Source: Phycisphaerae bacterium (GTDB taxonomy: Bacteria; Planctomycetota; Phycisphaerae; UBA1845; Fen-1342). From it: a stretch of 64,000 nucleotides of DNA. Below, in pieces: positions 4,627 to 28,492 of the stretch (position 1 is the first letter of the stretch; the number at the start of each line of letters is the position of its first letter). The notes under the pieces were generated by a model. It was not told the origin of the DNA. It worked only from the letters and a program-made list of their open reading frames with translations, and did no database searches. Position numbers and translations under genes: made by a program. Where the stretch lies: NCBI GenBank assembly GCA_017999985.1, contig JAGNKU010000002.1:310001-374000 (forward strand). Direction: 5' to 3'.

Positions 4627-4723
4627 CCGGCTTGCCCCGCCGCGCGTTCCCCTCCCGCCACCCCGATGCGTCGCACATCTGCATCCCGACGCTCCCCAGA
4701 CTGTCGCTGGCTCATCCTCTCAC

Positions 4724-5014
4724 GGAGATTTGAACAGCGACGCCGTCATCGATTTCCTCGACATCAACGCCTTCGTGCTCTACCTGTCGAACTTCCCCGT
4801 GTGGCAAACGACCTACGCTGGTTGCGACGCCGCATGTGGCGACATCGATGGCAACGGCGCGTATCCCTCGTTTGGCGACATCAACCCCTTCGTGACGCTG
4901 TTTCTGACGCACGCGCTGCCGCTGCCGTACGATGGGCGGCAGCGGCTTGAATGGCAGGTCGTCAGGATCGGCGGGGAGCGCAAACCGCCTGAGCGGGGAG
5001 AGTCAATGTTGTGA
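4724..5014 (+). pseudogene. Orphan dockerin-like domain remnant
   Basis: From 4724 an open frame encodes GDLNSDAVIDFLDINAF, then a spacer with NFPVWQTTYAGC, then GDIDGNGAYPSFGDINPFV. These are the two EF-hand-like halves of a planctomycete C-terminal dockerin-type tail. It closely matches the tail of the beta-helix protein ending at 18000 in both DNA and protein, including the unusual NFPVWQTTYAGC spacer. There is no body of a protein in front of it: upstream in frame lies only the end of the RND pump gene. About 30 unrelated residues follow the domain before the stop. I read it as the surviving 3' end of a deleted secreted-protein gene. Confidence 0.7.
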
Positions 5015-5136: not shown

Positions 5137-6840
5137 TCACGGCTGATACGTGAAGTTCACGTGCTGGATCCCGTGGCATGTCAGCGTGCATGAGCCGGTG
5201 TAGCGGCCCGTGTCCACGTAGAACCGCTGCCCGCCGACAATGGCAATGTCAAAGTTGATCAGGTGCCCGTGCTGTGCCGGGCTGCCGCTCACGCCGTGGG
5301 CAGCATGACACGCGCTGCACGGCGTCCGCCCGCGCACGACGTGCCGCTGGTGCAACGCGAAGCTCTCATCGCTGAGAATCGAATTGCGATCGTGACACTG
5401 GTAGCACAGGTCATACGCCTGCGGCGATTCCATCGTGAAGTCGCGCGTCTCGTACCGCGCAACCAGCAGATGCTCATAGCGCGACCCGTGCGGCCCGTCG
5501 ATCTCTGTCCCGCCCGCGCTCACCCCGTCCGGGTTGTTGTGGCAATCCTGGCAATTGATGAACCGCCGCGTTCGCAGCTCCGGCCGCAGGCTCGGCACTT
5601 CGCCGGACTGCCGGCTGGGAAACGCCACCGGATGCGCCGACGCCGCCGTCGGCATGAACTCCCGCCGAACGTTGCCGCCCTCGTCCTGCTGCCGCACGAT
5701 CCGCTGCGTCAGCAGCACGGGACGGTCGCCGTGGCAGCGAAAGCATACTTCGTAGTAAAACCCAGCCTGCTCGACCGTTGCACCCAGCAGGCTCACCCCC
5801 GGCACCGCCCACATCGCCGGCGGCACGATCGGGCCAGCGTTGAGTGTGCCCATTGGCCCCTTCAACAGGTCCTTCGCCGCCGCATGTGGATTGTGGCAAT
5901 CCGTGCATTCGACATAGCGCGCCACGCGCAGCCGATTCTCCGGGGTGGAGCGCAGTTCGCGCAGCTTGTTTACGCGATGCCCGGAACGCTGGTCCAGCAC
6001 CGACAGTACGCTCGGCCCGCTGATGCCGTCGTGGCACGTGATGCACAACTGCGATGGCCGATCGTACAGGAGTTGCTCGCGCCGCGGCGCACTGTGCGAG
6101 AGATGGCATGAACGACACGCGTTGTCCGCCAGCGACCGATACGGCAATTGCTCGCCGTTCGTAACTGTCACGGGCACGGATCGTGGGCTGAGCGCGTGCG
6201 AACCGTGCCACCAGCCGTCCATGTCATGGCACGTCAGGCACAGCGCGCCGTTCCGATCGGTAATCCGCAGAAAATCACCCAGCTCATTGTTGTGCGGATC
6301 GTGGCACGCCGTGCATTCCAGCTCGCCGCGCTCGCCGAGCTTGATCCGGTGGTCCACCAGCTCCGGCGGCCGAATCTGGCGATCGCGGTTGGCCAGCACG
6401 CGGTCGTAGCGGAAGCCGACCGGATGGTCGTCGGACAGGTCGTTGGTCAGGTTCGACGGCCCGGTCGGCATGAACGTATGTGTCATCGGGATCGGCTCGG
6501 TCATGGCCCGGTCGAGGGTCAGGCCGATCGCCAGGCTGCCGTCGTGGCAGCTCAGGCACAGCTTGCTCGCCGGCCCCGGCTGGTCGACGCGCGCGTCGGT
6601 CGTGCTGCTGCGATAGATGCGGTAGTACGTCGTCGGGTTGTGCCGGTTCCACAGCGGCGCCACGGGGCTCGCGTTGTGCGGCACATGGCAGAAGATGCAG
6701 ATTTCGCTTTCATCGAGCGCTCGGACCGGCCCCGGCCCCATCGCCGACAGGTCGTGCTTGGAGTTCATGATACGGTCGTCGGCCCATGCCACCGACACGA
6801 GGCACAACGCGCACGCGAGCGTCCGAACTGCCCGCTTCAT
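5137..6840 (-). CDS. Dodecahaem c-type cytochrome (periplasmic or secreted)
   Basis: A 567-residue cytochrome with a Sec signal (MKRAVRTLACALCLVSVAWA). Eleven CXXCH motifs (CIFCH, CLSCH, CTACH, CLTCH, CRSCH, CITCH, CTDCH, CFRCH, CQDCH, CYQCH, CSACH) and a final CX3CH (CTLTCH) lie between residue 48 and the C-terminus, giving 12 predicted c haems. Several motifs continue as CxxCHDG or CHxPH, the signature of paired-CXXCH domains. The start at 6840 overlaps the stop of the NHL lipoprotein gene as ATGA; a much longer upstream reading frame exists but is only a shadow of that gene. Last gene of a barrel, NHL lipoprotein and cytochrome operon, so it is a good candidate for the electron carrier that enters or meets the outer-membrane barrel, as MtrA does in Shewanella. 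That role is inference. Confidence 0.9.
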   Translation of the reverse strand: MKRAVRTLACALCLVSVAWADDRIMNSKHDLSAMGPGPVRALDESEICIFCHVPHNASPVAPLWNRHNPTTYYRIYRSSTTDARVDQPGPASKLCLSCHDGSLAIGLTLDRAMTEPIPMTHTFMPTGPSNLTNDLSDDHPVGFRYDRVLANRDRQIRPPELVDHRIKLGERGELECTACHDPHNNELGDFLRITDRNGALCLTCHDMDGWWHGSHALSPRSVPVTVTNGEQLPYRSLADNACRSCHLSHSAPRREQLLYDRPSQLCITCHDGISGPSVLSVLDQRSGHRVNKLRELRSTPENRLRVARYVECTDCHNPHAAAKDLLKGPMGTLNAGPIVPPAMWAVPGVSLLGATVEQAGFYYEVCFRCHGDRPVLLTQRIVRQQDEGGNVRREFMPTAASAHPVAFPSRQSGEVPSLRPELRTRRFINCQDCHNNPDGVSAGGTEIDGPHGSRYEHLLVARYETRDFTMESPQAYDLCYQCHDRNSILSDESFALHQRHVVRGRTPCSACHAAHGVSGSPAQHGHLINFDIAIVGGQRFYVDTGRYTGSCTLTCHGIQHVNFTYQP

Positions 6841-7892
6841 GACGCCTTCTCCGACAGATACTGGAAGACCTGCACCCGGCGATTGTAGCCGTCCGCCACC
6901 CAGATGCGATCCTGGGCGTCGATCGTCAGTCCCCCCGGCAGCGCGAACTCGCCCGGCCGCGCCCCCTCCTGCCCAAACGCGAGCAGCAATCGCCCGTCGC
7001 GATCGAAGATCTGGATATTCTCGAACTGGTTGTCCACGACATAGATGTGCTGATCGGAATCCACCGCCACCGCGCGCGGCCGCGCGAAATCGCCAGCGGC
7101 GTCGCCCTTCTGCCCGAAAACACGCACCGGCGTAGCGTCCGCGCCGAAGACCTGCACGCGGAAATTCATGGCATCGGCCACGATGAGACCGATATCGGGT
7201 TGCGCGGCCAGCGCCGTCGGGAAGTTGAACTGTCCGGGCGCGCTGCCGCGTTGTCCGACGCGCTGTTCCAGCGTCCGCCAATCCGTCGTCGCAAAGCATG
7301 CATGCGCCGCCGCGTCCGCCAGCCAGAACCGCCGCCCGCGGGCATCCCAGGCAATCGCCACCGGCGCCGTCAGCTCCGGCCAACGGTGCGTCGCGCGCCA
7401 CCGGCCGTCCAGATCGAACACGTCCACGGCTGCGCGCCCGCGATCTACCACGTACAACTGCGTGCCATCGCCGACGCTCACATCGATCGGAACACGCAAC
7501 GGATCGCTTGGCGACCCGCGAATCGTCGTGTACCGGCGGGCGGCAAGATCGAGGAGGTGCACGCTGCCGAGCCCGGTATCCGCCACGAAAACGCGTTCAC
7601 CGGCCACAGCGACCGCTGCCGGACGCGAGAATTCGGCCTGTGCCCGCGGGCCGGCAAGCGCCGCCTGAAACGCTTCCCAGCCACTCGGCCGCGCGCCAAG
7701 GCTGGCCTCGCCGCGCAGCTCGCCGATGTAGCGGATGCGCGGCCGGTCGGGCGGCGCGGGCCAGACGATCGGCGGTGAGACCGTGGGGAAGATCGGGCCG
7801 GACGGTGCCTGGCAGCCGGCGAGCAGCACGGCGCAGCCCATCGCCGCCAGCAGACCGGCACGCACGACCGCGTTGTGTCGCAGGGCGCTCAT
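6837..7892 (-). CDS. NHL-repeat beta-propeller lipoprotein
   Basis: 351 residues. A lipoprotein signal ends at VLLAGC (Cys27), followed by a six-blade-like NHL propeller. Repeated blades are visible as FSRPAAVAV...VFVADTG, FNFPTALAA...LIVADAMNFRVQVF, FARPRAVAVD...IYVVDNQFENIQIF and FALPGGLTID...IWVADGYNRRVQVF. There is no haem motif. Both ends are translationally coupled: the start overlaps the stop of the barrel gene as ATGA, and its own stop overlaps the start of the 12-haem gene the same way. NHL propellers are protein-protein or ligand platforms rather than redox centres, so a structural or docking role at the outer membrane is likely. Two other NHL proteins in this island are fused directly to haem domains. 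Confidence 0.88.
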   Translation of the reverse strand: MSALRHNAVVRAGLLAAMGCAVLLAGCQAPSGPIFPTVSPPIVWPAPPDRPRIRYIGELRGEASLGARPSGWEAFQAALAGPRAQAEFSRPAAVAVAGERVFVADTGLGSVHLLDLAARRYTTIRGSPSDPLRVPIDVSVGDGTQLYVVDRGRAAVDVFDLDGRWRATHRWPELTAPVAIAWDARGRRFWLADAAAHACFATTDWRTLEQRVGQRGSAPGQFNFPTALAAQPDIGLIVADAMNFRVQVFGADATPVRVFGQKGDAAGDFARPRAVAVDSDQHIYVVDNQFENIQIFDRDGRLLLAFGQEGARPGEFALPGGLTIDAQDRIWVADGYNRRVQVFQYLSEKAS

Positions 7893-10009
7893 TCGGCCCC
7901 CTTGCTGATGATCGGGATCTCGCGCTTCAGCTTGAGCCAGAACGACATGTCGCCGTCGCGCGAGCCCGGCAGATCGAGCATGTCATACTCGGCCTCGAAG
8001 CGCAGGGAAAAATAGCCCAGCCGCCAATCCACCGCCGCGCTGAGGTCCACGCCGTTGGTGATGCCGTTCAGCGAATCGTCCTCGTAGCGATAGAAGGCGC
8101 TGGCATTCGCCTCCAGGTTCGGCGCCAGCAGGTAACGGTACGAGCAGCCCAGGTCCAGCAGTGTCGTGTTGTGCGCCTCCAGCTCATCCGCCCCGCGGAA
8201 TCGAAAATGCGACAGCGTACCCCTGCCGTCCAACTGGTTCCGGGCGCTTTGCCACAGCACCACGTCGCCGTTGCTGTGCATGGCCTGGTACGGATCGAGC
8301 GCATCGTCGTTGTATTCATACTCCAGCCCCACCGACCAGCCCCGCCGCCGATAAGTGGCCCCGACCCGCTGCCGGTTCACGTCGCGCTCGCGAAACGCCA
8401 GGTAACGCACCGCGTTGTGGTCCTCGTTCTGGAATGAACCCGCGTAGTAGGGCGTCAGCCCGAACTGGAATTCCTGCTGCAGGCGGAAATCAAAGCGGTC
8501 GCGCCGCAGGCTGTAGTCCTGGTAGACGCGGTATGTGTAGCTGACCAGCACCGTCTGGCGATCGGTGATCTGCCCCGTGACCACCCGCCGTAGCGCCGTG
8601 TAGCGTCCCATGCGCAGGATCACGTAATCGCGCGCCGGCAGATACGTGCGCGTCCGCCCGGCGTCGGTGACGACAATGCTCCAGACATTCACGTCCGTCT
8701 GTGCCAGGTACGCCGGCAGCGGGTCGCGCAGCGTCACCGACTCGCCGATGACAATCCCCCCGCGGTCGCCGTGCCGCGTCTCGGTCGCGGTGTGGTTGTA
8801 CGTCGCATTCGCCGAGAAGCGGCCCCACGCGTTGTCCTGCGCGAAGGCGCTGTTCAGGACGCCGCCCCACTCGCAGAAATCCGCGTTGTAGTCCTGCTGC
8901 TGCTGCAGGCCGTAGAGCTGCGCCGAGGTGGTCAGCCACTGTCCGAGCTGGTGCGCCAGGCCAGCCTCGCCGCGCCAAGTCTCGGTCGTGAGCTCCTGGA
9001 ACGAGTCGCGCAGGTATTGGACGCCGTAGTTGCTCGCCAGTGAATCCGTGTGCTGCAGGCGCAGCCGCGTGGAGAGCTCCGCATTGTCGCGGGCCAGGTC
9101 GCCGGCCTCGTCCTGCAGCCGCGCCAGCGTCTCCCACGCGCTCTTGCCGTCGGGGCCGAAGCGCAGCACGTGGTTCAGGTTCAGGTAATGCCGCGTCGTG
9201 TCATAGCGCGTCCGGCTGCCCGAGTACAGCTCATGCCGATCGTTGTACTCGTAATCGACCCGCAGGGCGTGGTTCGGGCTGATCTGCCAGGTGCCCTCGT
9301 AGCGGAACATGTCGGTGCCGCGCTGCTCGTCATCCGACAGCTCCCGCGTGCGGCTGGTCAAGTCGTCCCAGGTGTGCTCAAAGGTGAAACGCATGGGGAA
9401 CTTCGCATTGTTGACAGACAGCCCGCCGCCGTACCGTTCGTACGTGCGATCCAGGCTGGGCTGGAACATCCGCGGCACACGGCTGTCGAGCCGTTGGGCA
9501 TAGGCGTTGCCTGAGATCACCCCGCGCGGCAGAAAGGTCAGGTTCACGTCGTATTCGAGCAGCGTGCCGTCGGAACCCTGGTCGTCGTCCGGCCCGGGCC
9601 GCGACTCGCTGAACCACTCCTGCGTCAGCCCGTAGCGCGCCGCGATGTCGTACAGCAGGAATTGCTCGCCGAACAGGCTCCCCGCAGTGTTCAATCCCAG
9701 CGTCTCTTCCAGCCGCCGGGCACGGTTGATCTGCTTCGCCGAGTGCGGCACAGGATTGCGATAGTCATAGTCCACGTCACGCCGGTCGAACTCGAGATCG
9801 AACCCCAACTCGAGCGCCAGGCGCCGCATCTCCAGAATGGACCGCGGCGGGCGGACCTCGCCGGCGGGCTGCGAAGTCGGCGCCGCCCGGCTGTCTGCCT
9901 CGGCGGGCTGCGTGTCTTGTCCGGCGGCAGGCGTTCCCGCGCCGGCGAGCCCTACCAGCCAGCCGGCCGCGCAGAGCATTCCGCCGGTAGAAATGACCCT
10001 TCGCGACAT
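7889..10009 (-). CDS. Putative outer-membrane beta-barrel (porin of a cytochrome conduit)
   Basis: 706 residues with a signal peptide (MCAAGWLVGLAGAG region, mature end near AAGQDTQP). After a short low-complexity linker the protein is rich in alternating aromatic and polar strands, such as NHALRVDYEYNDRHELYSG, WSVGLEYEYNDDALD, and NLEANASAFYRYEDDS near the end, the pattern of a large transmembrane barrel. It has no CXXC pair like MtrB and no haem motif. It is the first gene of an ATGA-coupled operon with the NHL lipoprotein and the 12-haem cytochrome, which is the logic of porin-cytochrome conduits (MtrCAB, OmbB-OmaB-OmcB). I do not recognise the exact family. The last residue is Glu, not the Phe expected by the classical BAM signal. 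Confidence is good for barrel, moderate for conduit. Confidence 0.7.
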   Translation of the reverse strand: MSRRVISTGGMLCAAGWLVGLAGAGTPAAGQDTQPAEADSRAAPTSQPAGEVRPPRSILEMRRLALELGFDLEFDRRDVDYDYRNPVPHSAKQINRARRLEETLGLNTAGSLFGEQFLLYDIAARYGLTQEWFSESRPGPDDDQGSDGTLLEYDVNLTFLPRGVISGNAYAQRLDSRVPRMFQPSLDRTYERYGGGLSVNNAKFPMRFTFEHTWDDLTSRTRELSDDEQRGTDMFRYEGTWQISPNHALRVDYEYNDRHELYSGSRTRYDTTRHYLNLNHVLRFGPDGKSAWETLARLQDEAGDLARDNAELSTRLRLQHTDSLASNYGVQYLRDSFQELTTETWRGEAGLAHQLGQWLTTSAQLYGLQQQQDYNADFCEWGGVLNSAFAQDNAWGRFSANATYNHTATETRHGDRGGIVIGESVTLRDPLPAYLAQTDVNVWSIVVTDAGRTRTYLPARDYVILRMGRYTALRRVVTGQITDRQTVLVSYTYRVYQDYSLRRDRFDFRLQQEFQFGLTPYYAGSFQNEDHNAVRYLAFRERDVNRQRVGATYRRRGWSVGLEYEYNDDALDPYQAMHSNGDVVLWQSARNQLDGRGTLSHFRFRGADELEAHNTTLLDLGCSYRYLLAPNLEANASAFYRYEDDSLNGITNGVDLSAAVDWRLGYFSLRFEAEYDMLDLPGSRDGDMSFWLKLKREIPIISKGAE

Positions 10010-10190: not shown

Positions 10191-10868
10191 ATGCGCAGTC
10201 GACCGCCGGGTTCTGTGTCTTGGCTCATCGCCGGCGTGTTGGGTGGCGTCCTCGGCATCGGGGGGTTGCGTGGCGCGCAGGTAGCCGAGCCCGACGCTGG
10301 ACCTGCCGCCACATCCCAGCCGACCACGCAGCCCGGCGAGACCGGGCCGCGCGCCGCACTCATCAGCGGGCTGATCGGTAGCAAGCACGATTTCACCCAG
10401 GGGGGCAAGAGCGGACGCGACCTGTGCCTCCCCTGCCATACCCCCCACCAGGTCGCGCCGCCGGTGCCGCAGCTCGATCGCCGACCGGAGACCACCCTGC
10501 CCCTGCGGCCGTACCAGGGCCTCGGCATCGAACTCACCGGCTGGTCACTCCTCTGCCTCGGCTGCCACGATGGCGTCACCGCACCCGACGTCTACACGTC
10601 CGCCCACGCGATCACCGTCGCCGCCGAACTCGGCCACACCCGCCTCGGCACCCGCGGCCTGCGCAGCCACCCGGTCGGCATCCGCTACCCGTCCGCCGCC
10701 ACAGACTACCAGCCGGCGGCCGCCGTCGAAGCCGCCGGTCTCTGGTTGCCTGACGGCCGCATCCAATGCACAACCTGTCACGACGCTCACAACACGCATC
10801 GATATGGCCGCATGTTGCGCATCAGTAACGAACGCAGTCGCATGTGCATGGCATGCCACCGGCTCTAG
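10191..10868 (+). CDS. Tetrahaem c-type cytochrome
   Basis: 225 residues; the start was placed at ATG 10191 because AGGAG stands 7 bases before it and a signal or anchor segment follows (WLIAGVLGGVLGIGGLRGA). Four CXXCH motifs are present: CLPCH, CLGCH, CTTCH and CMACH. The N-terminal mature part reads SKHDF...CLPCHTPH, very like SKHDL...CIFCHVPH in the divergent 12-haem protein, so the two are probably paralogous paired-CXXCH cytochromes. CLGCHDG and CHDAHNTH continue the same theme. It is probably a small periplasmic shuttle. The last 16 bases overlap the start of the NHL-octahaem gene, so translation is probably coupled. Confidence 0.88.
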   Translation: MRSRPPGSVSWLIAGVLGGVLGIGGLRGAQVAEPDAGPAATSQPTTQPGETGPRAALISGLIGSKHDFTQGGKSGRDLCLPCHTPHQVAPPVPQLDRRPETTLPLRPYQGLGIELTGWSLLCLGCHDGVTAPDVYTSAHAITVAAELGHTRLGTRGLRSHPVGIRYPSAATDYQPAAAVEAAGLWLPDGRIQCTTCHDAHNTHRYGRMLRISNERSRMCMACHRL

Positions 10869-12865
10869 CGTACATCCCGAATCGCCGCTGGCTCGCCGGC
10901 ACCGCGCTGGTCGCCGGCGCCTTGGCTGCATCGTTGCTTCCGAGCTGCGTGACGACCCGGCCCGAACTCACCGCGCAGGCCCCTTCGCCGCTGTACCCGC
11001 CGCCACCGCAGGTTCCACGCGTCGTTGCCCTCGGCACCCTCCGCGGCGCGCCCCCGCCGTCCCGGGCCGAAGTCAATCTGACCCTGTTCCTCTTCGGGGC
11101 CGCCCCGCCGCCGCCTCTCACCATCGCGAACCCCACGGGCCTGGCCGCCCGCGAGCGCGCGGTGCTCATCTGCGATCACGCGCTGAGCACCGTCTTCCGT
11201 TGGGACGCCGACACGAATCACATCTGCGAGGAGTCACTCCGGCCCCCCGCCGAGCATCCGTTCGCCATCGACCTCCTCCCGGACGGCCAGCGCCTGCTCT
11301 GCGATCGTCGCGGCGTGTTGCGAGTCGCCGCGGACGGCGCCGTCCAACAGCGTTACACGATCGAGGGCGGACCATATCGCCCGAGCGGCGTCCTCGCCGT
11401 CGACGAGCATGTCTGGGTCGCCAACGCCGCCGCGGATCGTATCGAGGTCTTCGCGCTCGACAGCGGCGCACACCTGCGCTCCATCGGTCGCTACGGACAA
11501 GGCCCGGCCGAGTTCTCGCTACCGCGCAGTCTGGCCCGCACGCCCGACGGCAACATCTGCATCGTGGATGTCCTGAACAACCGCGTGCAGGTGCTGGGTC
11601 CCGACGGCACGTGGGTTCGTGACGTCGGCGGCCCCGGCGACACCACCGGCCGCTTCGGCCGACCGCGCGACGTAGCCGTGGGCCCCGACGGTGCGATCTT
11701 CGTAAGCGACACTTTCTCGCAACGCGTCCATGCCTTCACCCGCGACGGCCAGCCGTTGCTCGCGTTCGGCGAACCCGGATCGGGACCAGGTGCGCTGGCT
11801 CTGCCCGCCGGCGTCGCTATCAGCGCCCACGCGCCACAAACGGAGACTGCCCCCGCGGTCGAGACCGTGCCGGCCTACTACGTGCTGGTCGCGGAACAGC
11901 TGGATCGTCCCGGTGTGCGGGTCTATGCCTGGCTCGCGGGGAATGACAAAGCCGCCGCCGAAGCCCTGCCCGCCGGCACCGCGACGAACTGGAAGCCCAC
12001 CTACCCGGAATCTGCGGCGATCAACCCGCACTGGGATGCCACGCGGTGCGCGACTTGTCACACGTCCTCCGGCGGCAAGCTCTTCCCCATCGCCCCTGAA
12101 GCGGTGAACGCCCTCTGCATATCCTGCCACGATGGGGTGAAAGCCCCCGCCGATCCACACCCCATCGGTCGCGCCGCGCAGACGGACCTCGTCCAAACGC
12201 CGGACGACTGGCCAACCGTGGACGGTGCGATCGGCTGCCTGACCTGTCATGACATCAAACGCCACTGCGAGCCCACCGCCCAGCGCCCCGCCGTCAACGC
12301 CGTGCTGCTGCGCCACTACGACGCGCAGCAACCCCTCGAATACTGCGGCAACTGCCACACCGCGGACATCGGCGGCCGCTTCAGCCCGCATCAGCAGCGT
12401 GACGCCAGCGGCAAAGTCCGCGAGGACGCCTGCCTGTTCTGCCACACGCGGCGGCCCGAGGTACCAGCGGATGGTCGCCGCCGCTTCGAGCCGCACGTGC
12501 GCGTGGAGTCGTCCGACCTGTGCCTCAACTGCCACGTGCGGCACTGGGACCTCTCGCCGCTCGGCCACGTGGACCGGCCGGTCACGCCGGCGATTCGGCA
12601 GTGGATGCTGATGAATGAAATGAGCGGCCAGGCCAACGTCGGCCGCGCGCAATTAAGGCACATGGCCGACGAGTCCGGACGCGAACCAGCCCGGCTGCCG
12701 CTCGGCAAAAACCGGGTCACGTGCTACACGTGCCATAACCCGCATTACGCCGGCATGTTTCCGCCGGACAGCGAACTGGGTGCGCTCGCCGCCAACCCCG
12801 TGGATCGGAAGGCGGCGCTGCGGACGGATTGGATCGACCTGTGCTCCGAGTGCCATCATCACTAG
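10853..12865 (+). CDS. NHL propeller fused to octahaem cytochrome, lipoprotein
   Basis: 670 residues from ATG 10853 (a GTG at 10844 is an alternative). The signal ends SLLPSC, a slightly unusual lipobox with Cys32. Residues about 90-390 form NHL blades (FSLPRSLARTPDGNICIVD, FGRPRDVAVGPDGAIFVSD). Eight CXXCH motifs fill residues 399 to the end: CATCH, CISCH, CLTCH, CGNCH, CLFCH, CLNCH, CYTCH and CSECH, the last two residues after it being His. The join of a propeller and a haem wire in one chain matches the larger 20-haem protein at 28493-31636, and the propeller alone resembles the lipoprotein of the divergent operon. A surface or outer-membrane-tethered electron carrier is the natural reading. 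Confidence 0.9.
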   Translation: MPPALAYIPNRRWLAGTALVAGALAASLLPSCVTTRPELTAQAPSPLYPPPPQVPRVVALGTLRGAPPPSRAEVNLTLFLFGAAPPPPLTIANPTGLAARERAVLICDHALSTVFRWDADTNHICEESLRPPAEHPFAIDLLPDGQRLLCDRRGVLRVAADGAVQQRYTIEGGPYRPSGVLAVDEHVWVANAAADRIEVFALDSGAHLRSIGRYGQGPAEFSLPRSLARTPDGNICIVDVLNNRVQVLGPDGTWVRDVGGPGDTTGRFGRPRDVAVGPDGAIFVSDTFSQRVHAFTRDGQPLLAFGEPGSGPGALALPAGVAISAHAPQTETAPAVETVPAYYVLVAEQLDRPGVRVYAWLAGNDKAAAEALPAGTATNWKPTYPESAAINPHWDATRCATCHTSSGGKLFPIAPEAVNALCISCHDGVKAPADPHPIGRAAQTDLVQTPDDWPTVDGAIGCLTCHDIKRHCEPTAQRPAVNAVLLRHYDAQQPLEYCGNCHTADIGGRFSPHQQRDASGKVREDACLFCHTRRPEVPADGRRRFEPHVRVESSDLCLNCHVRHWDLSPLGHVDRPVTPAIRQWMLMNEMSGQANVGRAQLRHMADESGREPARLPLGKNRVTCYTCHNPHYAGMFPPDSELGALAANPVDRKAALRTDWIDLCSECHHH

Positions 12866-12887
12866 GCGCCCGCCGCAGGAGGACCGC

Positions 12888-14231
12888 ATGCTCTGGCGCT
12901 CGCTCAGCCTGGATATTCACACCTCTCCCCCGGCCGCCTCGCGAAGAAGCCCCAGCGTCGTCCGAGCGCTCAGCGGCGTGATAGCGGCGGGCACACTCAC
13001 GCTCCTCGCCGGTTGCCCCGGCACCCCACCCGACGACGGCCCGGTCTTCAACAACCCCGAGGACCCCACCAACGGCGGTGCCAGCTACATCGGTGCCGCC
13101 GCGTGCAGCGCCTGCCACCCCGACATCGACGCCGCCACACGCTTGCACGGCCACGCCTCCGCGCTCAAGCGCAGCGAAGGCGCCGCACCCAGCTATCCCA
13201 CCGACGCCACGCGCGCCGGCGTGCCCAGCCCCCCGGACGGATACGCCTGGACTGACGTGAGCTACGTCATCGGCGGCCATGCCAAGGGCGCGATCTTCGT
13301 CGACCGCGACGGCTACGTGCTGACCGACGGCGTCGCCGGCGTGAACACGCAGTGGAACCTCGACTTGCCGCCCAACGGCACAAGCGCTGGCTTCGCGGAG
13401 TACCTGCCCGCGCAAGCCACGCTGCTGCCATTCGCGTACGACTGCTTCCGCTGCCACACGGTCAATCCGCAGCCGCAAACCGCCGACGACCCACGCACCC
13501 AGGACGGGCGCCCCGGCATCGGCGGCACGTGGTCCGAGCCCGGCGTCATGTGCGAAGCCTGCCACGGACCCGGTTCGAAGCACGCGCCTGACCCCGAGGC
13601 CCGCACCATGTTCGTCGATTCGTCGGCCGCGCTATGTGCACGCTGTCACACCGCCGGCGATGACCCCGATGTGATCCTTGCCGCGGACGGCTACGTTAAT
13701 CCGAATACGCAATACGCCGAGTTGCGGGCCAGCGGCGGGCACGCGGACTTCGCGTGCGGCTATTGCCACGACCCGCACGCCTCGACTGCGTACGCTCGTG
13801 CGACCGGCGTTCGCAACGGCTGTGTAGGCTGCCACGCGGATCAGAACCTCGCGTTCCACGATGGTTTCACATTCGTGCGCGGCGACTACGTGGAGGCGTT
13901 GACTTGCGAAAGCTGCCACATGCCGTTCACCGGCCGGAGCAATTCCGTCGCGGGCGCGGACGTGGTCGGCACGCGCGACCCGGGGCGGATGGGCGATGTC
14001 CGCGGGCACATCTTCCGCATCGACACGCAGGCCCCGCGCTATACGCAGATGTTCACACCGGACGGCACACAGGTCATCAAGGACGAGAAAGGCCACGCCG
14101 GCGTCTCGCTCGACTTCGTCTGCCTGCGCTGCCACAACGGCATCGGCAACGCGTTTGTCATCTCCTCCGACGGTGCCGCGGTCATCGCGACGCAAATGCA
14201 CCAAAACGCCGCCGCGTCCGCCAGCGAGTAG
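12888..14231 (+). CDS. Octahaem c-type cytochrome lipoprotein
   Basis: 447 residues. The ATG at 12888 follows AGGAGG and gives a lipoprotein signal ending LTLLAGC (Cys43). Eight CXXCH motifs: CSACH, CFRCH, CEACH, CARCH, CGYCH, CVGCH, CESCH and CLRCH. YIGAAACSACHPDIDAAT followed by an H-rich stretch is typical of the cytochrome c554 family, and SCHMPF after the seventh haem recalls the cytochrome c nitrite reductase and hydroxylamine-oxidoreductase-related octahaem proteins. There is no evident catalytic Tyr cross-link or Lys-ligated haem motif that I can point to, so enzyme or wire remains open. Third gene of the operon, 22 bases after the NHL-octahaem gene. Confidence 0.88.
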   Translation: MLWRSLSLDIHTSPPAASRRSPSVVRALSGVIAAGTLTLLAGCPGTPPDDGPVFNNPEDPTNGGASYIGAAACSACHPDIDAATRLHGHASALKRSEGAAPSYPTDATRAGVPSPPDGYAWTDVSYVIGGHAKGAIFVDRDGYVLTDGVAGVNTQWNLDLPPNGTSAGFAEYLPAQATLLPFAYDCFRCHTVNPQPQTADDPRTQDGRPGIGGTWSEPGVMCEACHGPGSKHAPDPEARTMFVDSSAALCARCHTAGDDPDVILAADGYVNPNTQYAELRASGGHADFACGYCHDPHASTAYARATGVRNGCVGCHADQNLAFHDGFTFVRGDYVEALTCESCHMPFTGRSNSVAGADVVGTRDPGRMGDVRGHIFRIDTQAPRYTQMFTPDGTQVIKDEKGHAGVSLDFVCLRCHNGIGNAFVISSDGAAVIATQMHQNAAASASE

Positions 14232-14403: not shown

Positions 14404-14433
14404 TTGACCCGGGGATGCACCGGACGATATAAA
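14404..14433 (+). promoter_or_regulatory. Sigma-70-like promoter of the beta-helix gene
   Basis: TTGACC (14404-14409), an 18-base spacer and TATAAA (14428-14433) lie 43 bases before the ATG at 14476. The match is among the best in the window and suggests that the beta-helix gene is transcribed independently of the cytochrome operon upstream. Confidence 0.65.
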
Positions 14434-14475
14434 GGTTGTAGGAGGCTCCTGCCGTTTTCTCCGGGGAGAGTGTGC

Positions 14476-17400
14476 ATGCGTCCGATTCGTGTATTCGCGG
14501 GCCTCGTCGGGTTCGTCGTCATCGCCTCTACCTGCTCGGTCGCCGGGGCGACCATCATCTACGTGGACGACGACGCCTCGCCCGGCGGCAACGGACTGAG
14601 TTGGCCGACGGCGTTCCGATTTCTGCAGGATGCGCTTGCGGCGGCGCAGCCCAGCGACGAAATCCGCGTGGCGCAGGGCACGTACTACCCCGATCGCGAC
14701 GCGGCCCACCCGACAGGGACGGCCGACCGCGCGCTGAGCTTCACGCTCAAGGACGGCGTGGGGCTCTACGGCAGCTACGCGGGCTTGGGCGCGACGGATC
14801 CGAACGCGCGCGACATCGCGGCATACGTCACGGTTCTCAGTGGCGACATCGGCGCGCCGGGCGATGATAGCGACAACAGCTACCATGTCGTCCACGGTGG
14901 CAGCACCAGCGCCAGCGCGCTACTCGATGGCTTCACGATTACGGACGGTAACGCGAACGGCGCCGCTCCTCACGACCGTGGTGGCGGCGTCCGCTGCGAC
15001 GACTCCTCCAGCCCCACGCTGGCCAACTGCACGATCGCGGGCAACACCGCCAGCCTCAACGGCGGTGGCGTGTACTGTGGCTACTTCTCACGTCCCACTC
15101 TGACCAACTGTGACATCGTCAACAACGTCGCCGATCATGGCGGTGGCCTGCACTTCTACGACTCTTCCAGTCCCACCCTGGCGGACTGCACAATCGCCGG
15201 CAACCTGGCCGCCGACGGCGGCGGCGTGTATTGTGACCACAGCGACTACCACGCCATACCCACCCTGACCAACTGCACGATCGCACAGAACACGGCTGCC
15301 GGCAGTGGCGGCGGAGTGTACGGCGACGGATACGCCATTCTGGTGCTCACCGCCTGCACAATCATCGGCAACACGGCTGGCGGCGATGGCGCTGGCGTGC
15401 ACGGCGGCTGGTACTCCAGCCTTACGCTGACGAGCTGCAGCATCACAGACAACGCTGCCGGGACGGACGGCGGCGGAGTGTACTGCGGGTCGTACGCCGA
15501 CGCGACGCTGACCGCTTGCACAATCACCGACAACGTGGCCAGCGAGCGCGGCGCAGGTGTATGCTGCCACTGCTTCAGCGCCAAGCTGACGAGTTGCACG
15601 CTTAAGAGCAACGTCGCCGGCGGCAATGGCGGTGGCGTGTACTGCGATGCCTCAAGCTTGACGCTCGTAAATTCCACGCTCGCCGATAACGTCGGTGGCA
15701 ACGGTGGTGGTGTGTACTGCGAGGCAAACCCTACCGCGCGGCTGACCAACTGCACATTCACGGGCAATGCCGCCGCCAGCAAGGGCGGTGGCCTGTACCG
15801 CAGCGCTATCTCCAACCCCATCTTCACCAATTGCATCCTCTGGGCTAACACGCCACAGGCCATCTACCCCCAGGGCGGCAGCATGGTGGTGACGTACTGC
15901 GACGTGCAGGGTGGCTGGAGCGGTACAGGCAATATCGACGCCGATCCAGAATTCGCTTTTCCGGATGATCCGCACCTGCTGAACAGCTCGCCGTGCATCG
16001 ACGCGGGCACGAACAGCCCATCCGGGGGGCTCCCATCCAGTGACGCCGACGGGCTGGCGCGTGTGCTCGACGGAGATGGCGACGGCTCCACGGTCGCGGA
16101 CATGGGCGCCTGCGAGTTCGACCCGGCCACGCCGACGCTGGCCTTGAGTGCTACCAGGCTGACGATCACTGCCCTAACCGGGCAAACCGGGTCGCGGGCG
16201 CTGGAGATCCGCAACAGCACTTGCGGCGCGCTGGCCTGGGAACTGCACTGTGCGGCAGACTGGCTCACGGCCGACCCGGTGGCCGGGGAATCTGCGGGTG
16301 AAGTGGATACGGTCACATTGACAGCCAGCACGACGGATCTGACCCACGGGACTTACGTTACGACCGCGTGGGTGAACGCGGCGCAGGCCCTCAATGCCCC
16401 ACGGGCAGTGACCGTGGTCCTGCGCGTGGCTGGGACACTGCACGTTCCGAGTGAGTATCCGACGATCCAGGCGGCCATCGACGCTGCGACCTTTCCGGGT
16501 GACGAAGTCGTAATCGCCGACGGGGTGTATGCTGGTCCCGGCAACATAAACCTGGACTTTCGCGGCCGCGCGATCCCGCTGCGCTCCGTAAGCGGTGACC
16601 CGGCCCTGTGCACCATTGACTGCGAAGGTAACGGGTGCGGCTTCTACTTCCACAGCGGCGAAGGCCCCGCGTCCAATGTGCAGGGCCTGACCATCCGGAA
16701 CGCGAGCAACAGCGGCGTCTACTGTTCTGGATCAAGCCCAAGGTTGGTCAATTGCCGGATCACCGGCAACACGACCGGCGATAACGGGGGCGGCGTGTAC
16801 TGCACCGACCAGGCCAGCCCGTCGTTGGTCAATTGCACGCTTGCGGGCAACACTTCCATGAACGACGGCGGTGCCCTGTACTGCGGGTACTACTCCAGCC
16901 CCACGCTCATCAATTGCACGCTCGCAAGCAACACAGCCGCCCATCGTGGCGGCGGCCTCTCCTGCCACAACTACTCTAACCCAACACTGACCAACTGCAT
17001 CCTCTGGCCAAACACGCCCGAAGCGATCTACGTTCGCTCAGGCAACCCGGACGTGACCTACTGCAACGTGCAGGGCGGCTTCGTCGGCACAGGCAACATC
17101 AACGCGTCCGCTCTCTTCGTGCGGGACCCGGACCCTGGTCCGGATGGCCAATGGGGCACACTGGACGACGATTACGGCGATCTCCGCTTGACTCATGGAT
17201 CAACCTGTATCGACGCCGGCAACAACTTGGCCGTGCCCAGCACCATCGCCACCGACCTGAGCGGAAACCCGCGGTTCGTCGATGTGACTTGTCGCCCCGA
17301 CTCGGGCAACGGGCCGCCGCCGATCGTGGATCTCGGCGCTTACGAAGCGCCCGACGATCTGCTCATCGACTGCAATGGCAACGGCGTCGATGACTTATGT

Positions 17401-18000
17401 GAGACGCTGGGCGGCACGAGTACCGACTGCAATGTGAACGGCGTGCCCGATGCCTGCGAGATCGCGGGTGGTTCAAGCCCAGACTGCAATGGTAACGCCG
17501 TGCCCGACGAGTGCGATCTCGACGGGGGCACGAGCCTGGACTGCAACTTGAACGGCTATCCGGACGAGTGCGAGCCCGACTGCAACGGCAACGGTCAGGC
17601 CGACGAATGCGACATCTTTCAGGGGGCCAGCTTCGACTGTGACGCTAACGGCGTGCCGGACGAATGCGAGCTGCACCCGGACTGTAACCAGAACTATGTC
17701 CCCGACGAGTGCGACTTGCTGAGCGGCACAAGCATCGACGCGAACGCCAACGGCATCCCCGACGAGTGCGAAATCTGCGCCGGCGACCTGGATTGCAGCG
17801 GGGCCGTCGACTTCGTCGATATCAACGCGTTCGTGCTCTACCTGTCGAACTTCCCCGTGTGGCAGACGACTTACGCCGGCTGTGACGCGGCAAACGGCGA
17901 CCTGGACGGCAACGGCGTCTACCCCGCCCTCGCCGACATCAACGCCTTCGTGACCCTGTTATCCACGCATTCACTGCCGCTGGCGTGCGGCGACCGCTGA
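14476..18000 (+). CDS. Secreted right-handed beta-helix protein with calcium repeats and dockerin tail
   Basis: 1174 residues from ATG 14476, preceded by GGGGAGAG. The signal peptide ends near TCSVAGA. The body has two parallel beta-helix blocks (about 25-560 and 660-950) built of repeats of the type LTNCTIxxNTAxxxGGGVYC, separated by a short beta-sandwich-like linker. About eight DCNxNGxPDECE units follow (about 970-1100), resembling thrombospondin-3 calcium loops. The end is a dockerin-like pair GDLDCSGAVDFVDINAF and GDLDGNGVYPALADINAF. No polysaccharide-lyase catalytic residues can be assigned, so adhesion or surface structure is as likely as enzyme activity. It lies inside the cytochrome island but has its own promoter; a link to electron transfer is unproven. 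Confidence 0.85.
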   Translation: MRPIRVFAGLVGFVVIASTCSVAGATIIYVDDDASPGGNGLSWPTAFRFLQDALAAAQPSDEIRVAQGTYYPDRDAAHPTGTADRALSFTLKDGVGLYGSYAGLGATDPNARDIAAYVTVLSGDIGAPGDDSDNSYHVVHGGSTSASALLDGFTITDGNANGAAPHDRGGGVRCDDSSSPTLANCTIAGNTASLNGGGVYCGYFSRPTLTNCDIVNNVADHGGGLHFYDSSSPTLADCTIAGNLAADGGGVYCDHSDYHAIPTLTNCTIAQNTAAGSGGGVYGDGYAILVLTACTIIGNTAGGDGAGVHGGWYSSLTLTSCSITDNAAGTDGGGVYCGSYADATLTACTITDNVASERGAGVCCHCFSAKLTSCTLKSNVAGGNGGGVYCDASSLTLVNSTLADNVGGNGGGVYCEANPTARLTNCTFTGNAAASKGGGLYRSAISNPIFTNCILWANTPQAIYPQGGSMVVTYCDVQGGWSGTGNIDADPEFAFPDDPHLLNSSPCIDAGTNSPSGGLPSSDADGLARVLDGDGDGSTVADMGACEFDPATPTLALSATRLTITALTGQTGSRALEIRNSTCGALAWELHCAADWLTADPVAGESAGEVDTVTLTASTTDLTHGTYVTTAWVNAAQALNAPRAVTVVLRVAGTLHVPSEYPTIQAAIDAATFPGDEVVIADGVYAGPGNINLDFRGRAIPLRSVSGDPALCTIDCEGNGCGFYFHSGEGPASNVQGLTIRNASNSGVYCSGSSPRLVNCRITGNTTGDNGGGVYCTDQASPSLVNCTLAGNTSMNDGGALYCGYYSSPTLINCTLASNTAAHRGGGLSCHNYSNPTLTNCILWPNTPEAIYVRSGNPDVTYCNVQGGFVGTGNINASALFVRDPDPGPDGQWGTLDDDYGDLRLTHGSTCIDAGNNLAVPSTIATDLSGNPRFVDVTCRPDSGNGPPPIVDLGAYEAPDDLLIDCNGNGVDDLCETLGGTSTDCNVNGVPDACEIAGGSSPDCNGNAVPDECDLDGGTSLDCNLNGYPDECEPDCNGNGQADECDIFQGASFDCDANGVPDECELHPDCNQNYVPDECDLLSGTSIDANANGIPDECEICAGDLDCSGAVDFVDINAFVLYLSNFPVWQTTYAGCDAANGDLDGNGVYPALADINAFVTLLSTHSLPLACGDR

Positions 18001-18021: not shown

Positions 18022-19542
18022 TTACTCCGGCTTCGGCGGCCCCGGCAGCGGATCCTTCAACCCTACGGCCGCCCAGAACGCCGGCACGCCGTGGCAGGCC
18101 TCGCAGCCCAGCGCCATCTCCTTCGGCGCGACCTCGTGGCTGACTTTGAGGTACATGACGGTCTCAGGGAATCCGTAGGTTCCGGTGAACGGAATCCCCG
18201 TGTACGCCGCCCCGTCCGCGAGCGCCAACCCCCAGTCAAACTCGACCCAATACGGATTCGCGCCGCCGGCCGTGCCAAACAGGTGCGGCACGCTCAGCCG
18301 CTTGGCCAACGTGTCCGCCGGCTGCCGGCCCACCATTTTCTTGAACGGGTAGATTTTCGCGTCCGCGTCATCCTTCGTCGCCGCCGGCTCGGCGATGACC
18401 ACCGGGTCTTCCGCGGTACCCGCCACCGTGTACGTATCGCTCACGCCGATGATCATCCGCCGCCACAGGTCGTTGTGCCAGCGATACTCCGGCTGCACGC
18501 CCTTCGCCCACACGAACGTGCCCTTCTGCTTGTCGTACGTCGGCTGGCCGAGTTCATCCGTCGGAATCGGGCTGATGTCCTGGCCGGCCGTATCCCAATA
18601 CCACGCCACCTTCGTCGGCTTGCTGCGCGCGAAGGCCGGAATATGGCACGTTTCGCAGGCTACGCGCGCCAGGTGCGCGTTCAGCAACGGATCGACCGGC
18701 GGGTTCGCCGTGTGCACGTCGGTATCCCCGTGGCAGCGTGTGCACGCCGGCGCCGCCCCGCCCTCGTTCACCGAATGCAGCGCAAAGCCGGCGATGCCGT
18801 GATTCTGTTCCGTATGGCACTCCTGGCACGCGAAATCCAGTCCGCCCATATGCACATCCATCTCGCGCGTCGGGCTGGCCAGATCGGACGACATGTCGCC
18901 ATGCTTCACGTTGTCGCCCCCGCCGGCGTAGAAATGACAGAAGCCGCAGTTGCGCCGCGTCGGCGGCCCCACCTTGTACGCGACCTGCTGCAGTTCGTCG
19001 GGGCCGACCACCGTTACTTGACCTTCGTTGACGAGCGCCGCCGCCCCACCCCCACCGCCATCCGTCGGGTGCTTGGCATACGTACCCGTTGTGTCGTGAC
19101 AGATGAAGCAATCGACCTGCGCCGTGCTCGTGAAGTCGAACGTGTCATCCTTCCAGCCATAGCTCGGATGGCACTGCGCGCAGCGCCCCTCGTTGGACGG
19201 TACCGCGATGCAGAAGTTGTTCAGCAGATCACGCTTGCCGTGCGTTTCCGTTTCGTGCCCGACGATGTTCACGGACGCCCCCGCCCACTGCCAGTGCCCG
19301 CTCTCCAGCAGGTCCGCCGCCACATCCGCATGGCAGATCTGGCATGTCGCCGGCCCCTCGTACCCCCCGGGGACAACCTCCGTCAGGAAGCGTTCGTGAT
19401 CGGTCTTTTCCACCGGCGTATTGCCATCCGGCGGTGAATTCCCGTCCGGCACGCCGTCGTCGGGCGGACACCCCCCCAGTGCCCCCAGCCCCGCGATGCC
19501 GAGCCCCGTCAAGGTGACGATCAGGCAGTATCGCAGAGACAC
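18022..19542 (-). CDS. Octahaem cytochrome, tetrathionate reductase (OTR) family, lipoprotein
   Basis: 506 residues. I use the GTG at 19542, which has GAGGAG 6 bases upstream and a lipoprotein signal ending LGALGGC (Cys25). Eight CXXCH motifs: CQICH, CAQCH, CFICH, CGFCH, CQECH, CTRCH, CETCH and CEACH. The stretch NEGRCAQCHPSYGWKDDTFDF followed by VDCFICHDTTGTYAKHP is the hallmark of octahaem tetrathionate reductase proteins. Characterised members reduce tetrathionate, and in vitro also nitrite and hydroxylamine. The haem spacing and the length fit the family; here the protein is lipid-anchored. It is convergent with the beta-helix gene, separated by only 21 bases, and 191 bases downstream of the OmcA/MtrC-like gene on the same strand. 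Confidence 0.9.
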   Translation of the reverse strand: MSLRYCLIVTLTGLGIAGLGALGGCPPDDGVPDGNSPPDGNTPVEKTDHERFLTEVVPGGYEGPATCQICHADVAADLLESGHWQWAGASVNIVGHETETHGKRDLLNNFCIAVPSNEGRCAQCHPSYGWKDDTFDFTSTAQVDCFICHDTTGTYAKHPTDGGGGGAAALVNEGQVTVVGPDELQQVAYKVGPPTRRNCGFCHFYAGGGDNVKHGDMSSDLASPTREMDVHMGGLDFACQECHTEQNHGIAGFALHSVNEGGAAPACTRCHGDTDVHTANPPVDPLLNAHLARVACETCHIPAFARSKPTKVAWYWDTAGQDISPIPTDELGQPTYDKQKGTFVWAKGVQPEYRWHNDLWRRMIIGVSDTYTVAGTAEDPVVIAEPAATKDDADAKIYPFKKMVGRQPADTLAKRLSVPHLFGTAGGANPYWVEFDWGLALADGAAYTGIPFTGTYGFPETVMYLKVSHEVAPKEMALGCEACHGVPAFWAAVGLKDPLPGPPKPE

Positions 19543-19733
19543 GCACGTCTCCTCATTGAGCTGAGTCAGCGCGAGCCTTCCCGCGGCTGCGCGCGGACAT
19601 GCCACTGGCTGTGGTAGTCCAATCGCCCCCGCAAGTCAACGCCCCCCGTGCCAGCAAGACGCAGGGCAGGGAAGACTCCCTGCCCTGCGGTGATTCCAGG
19701 TGTGCCGTCGCTTCCGTTACGCCCGCCGGTCGA

Positions 19734-22070: not shown

Positions 22071-22272
22071 GGCCGTTCTCCTTCGCGATTTGCGCTCGCA
22101 ACTTCCTGACATGTGCCCGTTGAGTCGTATGTTATCGCGCGAAGGGTGCAATGCAATGCAAACTTGCGCGCTCCGCGCCGGCCACGTCAGTATGCTCCGG
22201 AACGCGCCAGCACCGCAATCCTCCCCAGCGGGGGATCTCCTCCCCCTTAGGGGGGAGCCGACTGCGTACTGT

Positions 22273-22938
22273 TCAGAGGTTGTTACGGACCGCGTAGCTC
22301 ACCGCCGCCGCGCGCGAGCACAGCGCCAGCTTGCGGTAAACGCTCTTCAGATGTGAACGCACCGTCGAGGACGATACGCCGATTTCCGAGGCGATGACAT
22401 CGTTGCGCAACCCGCGCCCCACCAACCGCAGCACCCGCAATTCCTGCCCGGTCAGGCCCGCCGGCGGCCCGTCGTCCGCCGCGCCGCCCGCCATGCCGAT
22501 CAGACGGTGCGCGACCGCCTGCGAAAGCCGTACCTGCACGGCTCGGTCGTCCGTGACATCACAGAACAGCAGCGCGCGCCCGATCAGCGCACCGTCCGGG
22601 CTGTAACACCGCGACGCATTGGCCTTGAGATCGGCGCGCTGCGGCCAGCGCAGCGCGATGTCCGCCATGTGGTGCCCCTCCATTTCACCGGCGTCACGCC
22701 AGAACGCGGCCAACTGCGGGTCTTTCAGGACCTGGCCGACCGCGTGTCCGACGCATTGCGCGCGCGGCGCCCCCAGGACGTGCTCGGCTGCGCGATTCAA
22801 CCACACCACCCGTCCCTGCGTGTCCACCAGCACCAGGCCGATCGACAGGCCCGCCACCGCCTGCGCCAACAAACAGGCATCCTCGCAATCCTGCCCTCGC
22901 GGCGATTTCCCGGCCGGCATGCGGCTGCGCGCAATCAT
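22273..22938 (-). CDS. PAS-domain LuxR-type transcriptional regulator
   Basis: 221 residues, starting at ATG 22938 after GAGAGGG. The N-terminal half is PAS-like: SIGLVLVDTQGRVVWLNRAAE, then LLFCDVTDD at the end of the fold. The C-terminal half is a LuxR/FixJ helix-turn-helix (LTGQELRVLRLVGRGLRNDV, then IASEIGVSSSTVRSHLKSVY). It has no receiver domain and no visible haem- or flavin-binding signature. It is transcribed divergently from the CbcL-like operon across a 97-base gap, and lies upstream of the decahaem gene on the same strand, so control of electron-transfer genes is a reasonable guess. Longer in-frame extensions toward 23157 would run into the opposite gene. Confidence 0.85.
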   Translation of the reverse strand: MIARSRMPAGKSPRGQDCEDACLLAQAVAGLSIGLVLVDTQGRVVWLNRAAEHVLGAPRAQCVGHAVGQVLKDPQLAAFWRDAGEMEGHHMADIALRWPQRADLKANASRCYSPDGALIGRALLFCDVTDDRAVQVRLSQAVAHRLIGMAGGAADDGPPAGLTGQELRVLRLVGRGLRNDVIASEIGVSSSTVRSHLKSVYRKLALCSRAAAVSYAVRNNL

Positions 22939-23035
22939 GTTCTGGCCCTCTCGCGTACACCACCAACCGTCGATTATAGTTACCGCCACGTCACGCGGCC
23001 TCCACGGCCGGAGTTTTTCTCCGAGACGAGGCGCC
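22939..23035. promoter_or_regulatory. Divergent control region with small hairpin
   Basis: 97 bases between the PAS-LuxR gene and the CbcL-like gene. TTATAGT near 22976 could be a -10 element for the rightward operon. CGGAG-TTTTT-CTCCG (23009-23023) is a 5-bp inverted repeat close to the start codon, preceded by two direct CGGCC copies. Either could be a regulator site; neither is a known operator that I can name. Confidence 0.35.
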
Positions 23036-28337: not shown

Positions 28338-28425
28338 AGCGATATCCAAACACTCGGAGTTCACGCGGGCAGCAAATGTGTATTCTGCCCGTCTCGGTCG
28401 GTCGCCGCGGCCACGCCACATACTC

Positions 28426-28431
28426 TATAAT
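28426..28431 (+). promoter_or_regulatory. -10 element before the 20-haem gene
   Basis: A perfect TATAAT 62 bases before the ATG at 28493, in the 155-base divergent gap between the NapC-type and 20-haem genes. I see no good -35 at 16-18 bases upstream, so the promoter may rely on an activator or on another sigma factor. Confidence 0.45.
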
Positions 28432-28492
28432 GCCCGCACCCCGCCGGAGGCAAGCGCTTCGGCGGGCAGATCGTTCCGACCGAGGATCGGGC

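Follow-up and report, generated by a model that had tools for sequence, protein, structure and literature searches.

The barrel, NHL lipoprotein and 12-haem cytochrome genes

We analysed a window of 64,000 nucleotides from the genome (5.23 Mb) of a Phycisphaerae bacterium of the Planctomycetota (contig JAGNKU010000002.1, positions 310,001 to 374,000 of the forward strand). Three genes lie head to tail on its minus strand, between 10009 and 5137, and encode, in this order, an outer-membrane β-barrel, an NHL lipoprotein and a multihaem cytochrome. The plus strand reads TCAT at 6837-6840 and at 7889-7892, which is ATGA on the coding strand, and the NHL gene thereby overlaps the cytochrome gene (6837-6840) and the barrel gene overlaps the NHL gene (7889-7892) by four bases. 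These three open reading frames (ORFs) and both overlaps had been reported in the original prediction, which a model made from the letters of this DNA, and we find them at the same positions and on the minus strand. The overlaps suggest translational coupling of the trio. The 1:1:1 complex that had been proposed on their account was not retained, as overlaps point to coupling of translation and not to stoichiometry, and several phyla have the barrel gene away from the NHL-cytochrome pair.

The cytochrome (5137-6840, minus strand; 567 amino acids) starts with a Sec-type N-terminus and matches the Pfam family Paired_CXXCH_1 (expect value, E, 2.5e-28). The count of 12 haems given in the original prediction holds, while its composition had to be corrected: motif counting and alignment give 11 CXXCH motifs and one CX3CH motif, the latter (CTLTCH, residues 551-556) encoded at 5173-5190 on the minus strand. 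All 12 motifs are invariant in 34 of 34 aligned 12-haem cytochromes, that of the window included; our cytochrome alignment A2 omits two fragments of locus L058 and one 4-haem gene of L068. Across phyla, in an alignment of 62 rows made of the window protein and 61 proteins from the wider scan described below, every residue of the haem motifs is found in 59 rows or more, and the CX3CH motif in 59. Judged by this conservation the twelfth motif is to be taken as real, and cytochromes of this family called undecahaem carry a conserved twelfth CX3CH that is overlooked by counts of CXXCH. Residues 207-567 (5137-6222, minus strand) make up a C-terminal module of eight haems, seven CXXCH and the CX3CH, which we propose to span the barrel. 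It has weak matches in the PDB (E 1.7e-6 and 8.9e-6), its haem motifs and histidines are conserved across phyla, and it has a gene of its own in three Acidobacteriota loci.

The barrel gene (7889-10009, minus strand) encodes 706 amino acids with no haem motif. Its cysteines are confined to residues 13, 379 and 622, and the protein is thus free of the CXXC motif of MtrB, as had been predicted. Searches with the barrel sequence returned zero matches in Pfam and in the PDB. Barrels of the MtrB/PioB type have an N-terminal CXXC, and the Pfam family that we take to be named MtrB/PioB is absent from the five families matched by 39 barrels (E 0.01), so that MtrB membership was rejected at the level of sequence. 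The model of the barrel (mean predicted local distance difference test score, pLDDT, 87.2; predicted template modelling score, pTM, 0.74; 39 sequences in the alignment) is nearly all-β, with pLDDT below 50 for residues 1-53 only, and 30 strands of at least 10 residues were counted in its DSSP list; alignment A1 of the barrels omits L005 and L051. A very wide outer-membrane barrel is thus predicted, and on this number of strands it should be wide enough for the multihaem plug of a conduit: about 30 lies far over the limit of about 16 below which the original prediction held a barrel too narrow, and the model likewise speaks for a barrel fold. Foldseek placed LptD first (E 4.5e-9) and MtrB (6r2q_B) second (E 5.3e-9), with template modelling (TM) scores of 0.32-0.38, and in VIA-align MtrB was among the top three and had the longest alignment of these (Z 16.8, 425 residues, root-mean-square deviation 6.9), level with several TonB-dependent receptors. 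Usher pores also resembled the model. Predicted strands 18 and 19 are separated by an insert of 56 residues (429-484; about 8558-8725, minus strand), which is conserved, with D461, R475, G479 and I481 invariant, and which by strand parity may lie on the periplasmic side in possible contact with the cytochrome. A match of residues 435-498 to the NCBIfam family 'phage tail tube' (E 6e-5; 22.6 bits, cut-off 60) was discarded as a chance or generic β match in the insert.

Recurrence of the trio among relatives and across phyla

Homologues of the barrel were found in 44 of the 61 genomes searched, the bacterium's own included, and of the 43 relatives 40 were examined, each at its best locus (all but G024, G025 and G055). 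The three-gene order, which the original prediction had suggested looking for elsewhere, is complete in 34 of these 40 loci and in 33 of the 36 that have at least 3 kb downstream (L044, L055 and L064 being the misses), and the four-base overlap of the NHL and cytochrome genes recurs in 23 of the 40, with ORF starts called mechanically. This arrangement exceeds chance. In an even draw of the phylum, the 12-haem protein was found at E 1e-60 in 11 of 294 genomes, again with the own genome included. A separate gene for a tetrahaem cytochrome of the type of OmcE, a filament-forming cytochrome, is present in 29 of the 34 relatives' loci that bear the 12-haem gene. In the nearest families this gene and a gene for an NHL protein fused to an 8-haem cytochrome are divergent from the trio, like in the window. 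More distant families of the order have all on one strand, as barrel, NHL, 12-haem, tetrahaem and NHL, and in some of these families the 8-haem part has a gene of its own next to that of the second NHL.

For a wider scan of GTDB genomes an alignment of OmcE-type domains served as query, and the best 80 of 571 confirmed loci were examined, a set that includes near relatives of the window (for example L112, from a relative at family level whose gene set is the same) and gives no frequency of occurrence. Full cytochromes of the 12-haem type, 61 in number, are present in 60 of the 80 loci. These 60 loci represent 11 named phyla and KSB1, four having no phylum in the record: Planctomycetota (21), Pseudomonadota (11), Bacteroidota (7), Verrucomicrobiota (4), Thermodesulfobacteriota (3), Nitrospirota (3), Calditrichota (2), and Gemmatimonadota, Chlorobiota, Ignavibacteriota, Nitrospinota and KSB1 with one each. 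The NHL gene lies directly upstream of the cytochrome gene in 58 of the 61 cases, a barrel gene lies directly upstream of this pair in 37, and the barrel family is found somewhere in the locus in 49. A separate OmcE-type tetrahaem gene is present in 46 of the 60 loci. The gene order tetrahaem-NHL-barrel-NHL-12-haem was seen in 26 of 60 plus-strand cases and the order NHL-12-haem-tetrahaem-NHL-barrel in 8 of 60.

These counts bear on the possibility that the trio forms no single complex, with the barrel acting as a solute porin, the NHL protein as a scaffold and the 12-haem cytochrome as a soluble periplasmic store of electrons. The cytochrome has no evident membrane anchor of its own and the barrel gene is sometimes far from it, both of which would fit such a division of labor; however, the gene order is kept with four-base overlaps in the relatives, it is kept across phyla, and conduits are usually recognised by a large barrel adjoining a multihaem gene. 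We consider separate functions of this kind very improbable. The porin-cytochrome conduit of the original prediction is supported, as the barrel is predicted to be wide and accompanies both other members of the trio in many loci.

OmcE-type domains and their NHL neighbours

The N-terminal 206 residues of the cytochrome (6223-6840, minus strand) form an OmcE-type tetrahaem domain. In the PDB, residues 9-206 match 7tfs, the OmcE filament of Geobacter sulfurreducens (E 1.4e-29), and a second cytochrome structure, 9yuq (E 2.4e-26), and comparison of the cytochrome family profile with 7tfs gave E 1.7e-43, limited to positions 8-206. An alignment of seven OmcE-type domains showed that the histidines of the four CXXCH motifs and exactly four other histidines are invariant, which makes eight ligands; in 7tfs the four others sit in KHD, CHxPH, DHP and CHxxH. 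A second protein with this domain is encoded on the plus strand at 10191-10868, a divergent OmcE-type tetrahaem cytochrome of 225 amino acids whose start codon is uncertain, the ORF being open from 10119. It matches 9yuq (E 3.5e-10) and 7tfs (E 8.2e-7) and shares 30% identity with the N-terminal domain of the 12-haem cytochrome. At the level of sequence, homology to OmcE over the whole domain, four CXXCH motifs and four distal histidines are shown for both proteins, and the domain is thus present twice in the cluster. Neither the domain nor this tetrahaem gene had been noticed in the original prediction. In OmcE one haem ligand is supplied by the neighbouring subunit (PMC12307469). If this intersubunit ligand is among the four distal histidines, as expected, it would be kept in the OmcE-type domain.

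Of 208 OmcE-type domains, 177 entered a tree built by quick search, after removal of near-copies and of four aberrant domains. On this tree fused and separate domains are accounted for by 3 state changes, compared with a mean of 56.8 for shuffled labels, and the branch dividing them has weak support (Shimodaira-Hasegawa-like approximate likelihood ratio test, SH-aLRT, 64). The separate domains on the fused side are three rows, one contig-end fragment and two Acidobacteriota genes. In the loci of these two genes and in a third Acidobacteriota locus (L086, L089 and L139), a 4-haem gene covers the profile from position 8-15 or so to 207, and the next gene matches the C-terminal half as far as position 567. 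Occurrence of a family both as a fusion and as adjacent split genes is standard evidence that the two halves function jointly.

The NHL β-propeller lipoprotein of the trio (6837-7892, minus strand) has 351 amino acids, a lipobox (LLAGC27) and no haem motif, and matches Pfam NHL with E 3.4e-22. On the plus strand, 10844-12865 encodes a protein of 673 amino acids with a lipoprotein-like N-terminus, in which a second NHL propeller is fused to a cytochrome of 8 haems (8 CXXCH; Pfam NHL E 5e-10, Cytochrome_C7 E 2e-8); this propeller is 43% identical to the first over 143 residues. It is followed at 12852-14231 (plus strand) by an 8-haem lipoprotein-like cytochrome, recognized by its ORF, motifs and Pfam, with counterparts in many relatives' loci. 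Fusion of NHL with multihaem parts recurs in the host genome; a protein of 1086 amino acids (28376-31636, plus strand) carries NHL-type repeats and 20 CXXCH, and a similar protein of 1155 amino acids with 20 motifs is encoded near the trio in L050.

Near separate OmcE-type genes, NHL genes of the same family were found within 700 bases and on one strand in 56 of 75 cases. Since NHL genes accompany OmcE-type domains whether fused (58 of 61) or separate (56 of 75), we read the NHL protein as a partner of the OmcE-type domain and not as a part of the barrel. The same association would also be expected if barrel and NHL lipoprotein formed an export or assembly platform for OmcE-type cytochromes, in which tetrahaem subunits leave through the barrel and the 12-haem protein serves as first subunit or cap instead of as a lasting wire within the barrel. 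The exit route of OmcE filaments from the cell is unsettled (PMC12307469), and the barrel model resembles LptD and usher pores too. However, the conservation of haem motifs and histidines in the 8-haem module across phyla is what is expected of a wire, and a folded haem protein would be hard to export; we regard the platform as unlikely.

Comparison with Uet and a proposed path for electrons

The nearest described system is Uet of Tenderiales and some Gallionellaceae, composed of the undecahaem UetJ, the extracellular tetrahaem UetA, the peptidylprolyl isomerase UetB, the barrel UetC, the trihaem periplasmic UetDEG and the NHL proteins UetHI (PMC10734462). Likened by its parts list, the trio cluster shares with Uet a barrel, NHL proteins, an 11-haem doubled-CXXCH cytochrome, which in the Uet table has 11 or 12 haems, and a separate tetrahaem cytochrome (PMC10734462). 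By its motifs and its match to Paired_CXXCH_1, the 12-haem cytochrome corresponds to UetJ as the latter is described; the NHL lipoprotein and the NHL part of 10844-12865 correspond to UetH and UetI. A possible counterpart to UetC is the barrel, whose family occurs in gammaproteobacterial loci that hold the main Uet parts (L098 and L108), and the OmcE-type tetrahaem cytochrome is a candidate counterpart to UetA. As to the trihaem proteins, the ORFs listed for the initial 32 kb of the window include none of at least 80 amino acids with exactly three CXXCH. The cluster differs from Uet in its Planctomycetota host, in its two divergent arms, in the fusion of the second NHL to an 8-haem cytochrome and, as far as these 32 kb go, in having no trihaem gene listed. 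By this comparison the trio cluster is of the Uet type and not a new kind, and the novelty suggested in the original prediction is not supported: the parts match published Uet, the same NHL-cytochrome pair and barrel family occur in many phyla, and Uet already combines a haem-free propeller with a barrel and a multihaem protein (PMC10734462). The literature searched, which consists of partial texts and has the primary Uet and OmcE structure papers outside it, contains no mention of an OmcE-type domain in the undecahaem protein or of a conserved twelfth motif.

Other systems share fewer features. MtrCAB and MtoAB of Shewanella and iron oxidisers likewise have a wide barrel, of 26 strands in MtrB (PMC12133095), and a multihaem cytochrome, whereas the window barrel has no CXXC and an MtrB-family Pfam match was found for none of 39 barrels; against the MtrA/DmsE-type decahaem family the cytochrome scores 53.9 bits with a cut-off of 192.2. 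In the Pcc conduits of Geobacter (OmbB-OmaB-OmcB; PMC4245776) and the verrucomicrobial porin-multihaem cytochrome clusters (PMC5615132) a barrel is paired with an 8-haem cytochrome, as the barrel is with the 8-haem module here, but the 8-haem unit stands alone there, whereas in the window it is joined to an OmcE-type domain within one protein and has an NHL protein as its companion. NHL genes also occur within multihaem gene clusters of Desulfovibrio ferrophilus (PMC9769857). Geobacter-type omcE loci have in common with the window an NHL gene and multihaem genes. They also hold an ORF of 740-806 amino acids ending in Phe, placed just behind omcE or behind a second NHL gene; the fused 12-haem cytochrome was not found in the loci examined. 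In L071, L074 and L083 this Phe-ending ORF, which in its ending is like outer-membrane barrels, follows omcE (in L083, a second NHL gene) and is preceded by NHL and by 8- and 9/10-haem genes.

We think it probable that the trio makes up the outer-membrane portion of an extracellular electron transfer system of the Uet type, in which a barrel-held cytochrome offers an OmcE-type contact end. The wide barrel would hold the 12-haem cytochrome in the outer membrane and the 8-haem module would span it as a transmembrane wire, eight being also the number of haems in the periplasmic partner of the Geobacter Pcc conduits (PMC4245776). At the OmcE-type domain the tetrahaem protein or its filament would then dock. 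The NHL lipoprotein, the gene of which runs into the beginning of the cytochrome gene, would be a dedicated partner of the cytochrome and may act in its membrane retention or maturation. The divergent tetrahaem cytochrome and the second NHL protein with its eight haems would pass electrons onward, perhaps in the form of a filament like that of OmcE, with its base on the OmcE-type domain.

Several observations weigh against this reading. In 24 of 61 cases no barrel gene immediately precedes the NHL-cytochrome pair, partly owing to contig ends and partly to other gene orders, and the separate tetrahaem gene was not found in 14 of 60 loci, some of them on short contigs, which does not apply to L103 and L118 (20.6 kb each). 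Three proteobacterial loci (L103, L118 and L126) have neither the CX3CH motif nor a detectable barrel of this family. The MtrB fold match is unspecific: LptD and TonB-dependent receptors score equally (TM ~0.36), and because usher barrels also score alike we kept the match as resemblance to wide barrels only; going by the model, the barrel fold alone cannot indicate a cytochrome conduit. In hhalign, the barrel and the large ORF after omcE of Geobacter-type loci were matched with 51% probability over the last 78 columns only (E 1.6e-4 for a single comparison; reversed control 0.1%), and we claim no homology from this. Lastly, an AlphaFold2 single-chain model of the 12-haem cytochrome was discarded (pLDDT 39.4, pTM 0.22; 34 sequences). 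The loci L103, L118 and L126, from Sulfurimicrobium and Thiobacillus, hold an 11-haem homologue, next to which an NHL gene and the gene of a 24-haem protein containing an OmcE-type stretch are found.

The Uet-type reading can be taken a step further, to a proposal that we put forward tentatively and hold to be possible, if short of probable: the 12-haem protein may be a built-in socket, the 8-haem half of which crosses the barrel while the OmcE-type half is the permanent first subunit for polymerisation of the separate tetrahaem protein, and the NHL propellers may be general holders of OmcE-type domains.

The trio and further multihaem genes make up a cytochrome island of about 26 kb. Besides the genes above, it includes 18022-19605 (8 motifs), 22619-24931 (6 motifs and a cytochrome-b-like membrane part), 24924-26039 (2 motifs) and 26505-28421 (11 motifs plus one CX3-4CH). 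A protein of 805 amino acids (19734-22151, minus strand) carries 10 CXXCH motifs, begins like a lipoprotein and has, close to its N-terminus, a collagen-like G-P-T/A-G stretch; from its translation it gives the impression of a surface cytochrome of the OmcA/MtrC type. At 4717-4990 (plus strand), in an ORF after RND efflux genes, lies a dockerin-like repeat (DFLDINAFVLYLSNFPVWQTTYAGCDAA...) that is a near-copy of the end of a 1198-residue protein (14404-18000) and is possibly a gene fragment or mobile tail.

The conduit may also work inward, taking up electrons from Fe(II), minerals or partner cells, an option that overlaps with the Uet-type reading, which takes no side on direction. Uet, the nearest described system, was found in a biocathode organism and in iron oxidisers (PMC10734462), whereas the window also holds other multihaem genes, one of which gives an MtrC-like impression, as in metal reducers, and direction cannot be inferred from sequence. 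We hold inward flow to be quite possible, if short of probable.

The physiological role of cytochrome filaments is disputed (PMC11077965). If the socket proposal is true, a nanowire would be joined to an outer-membrane conduit through one polypeptide, haem by haem, and this would be a common mode of anchoring cytochrome nanowires in about a dozen phyla. To our knowledge, extracellular electron transfer has been little studied in planctomycetes related to Phycisphaerales, to which the system described here extends. A conduit cytochrome that starts with a filament-subunit domain and lies, in many phyla, beside a separate subunit gene is a testable candidate for the question of how nanowires are anchored.

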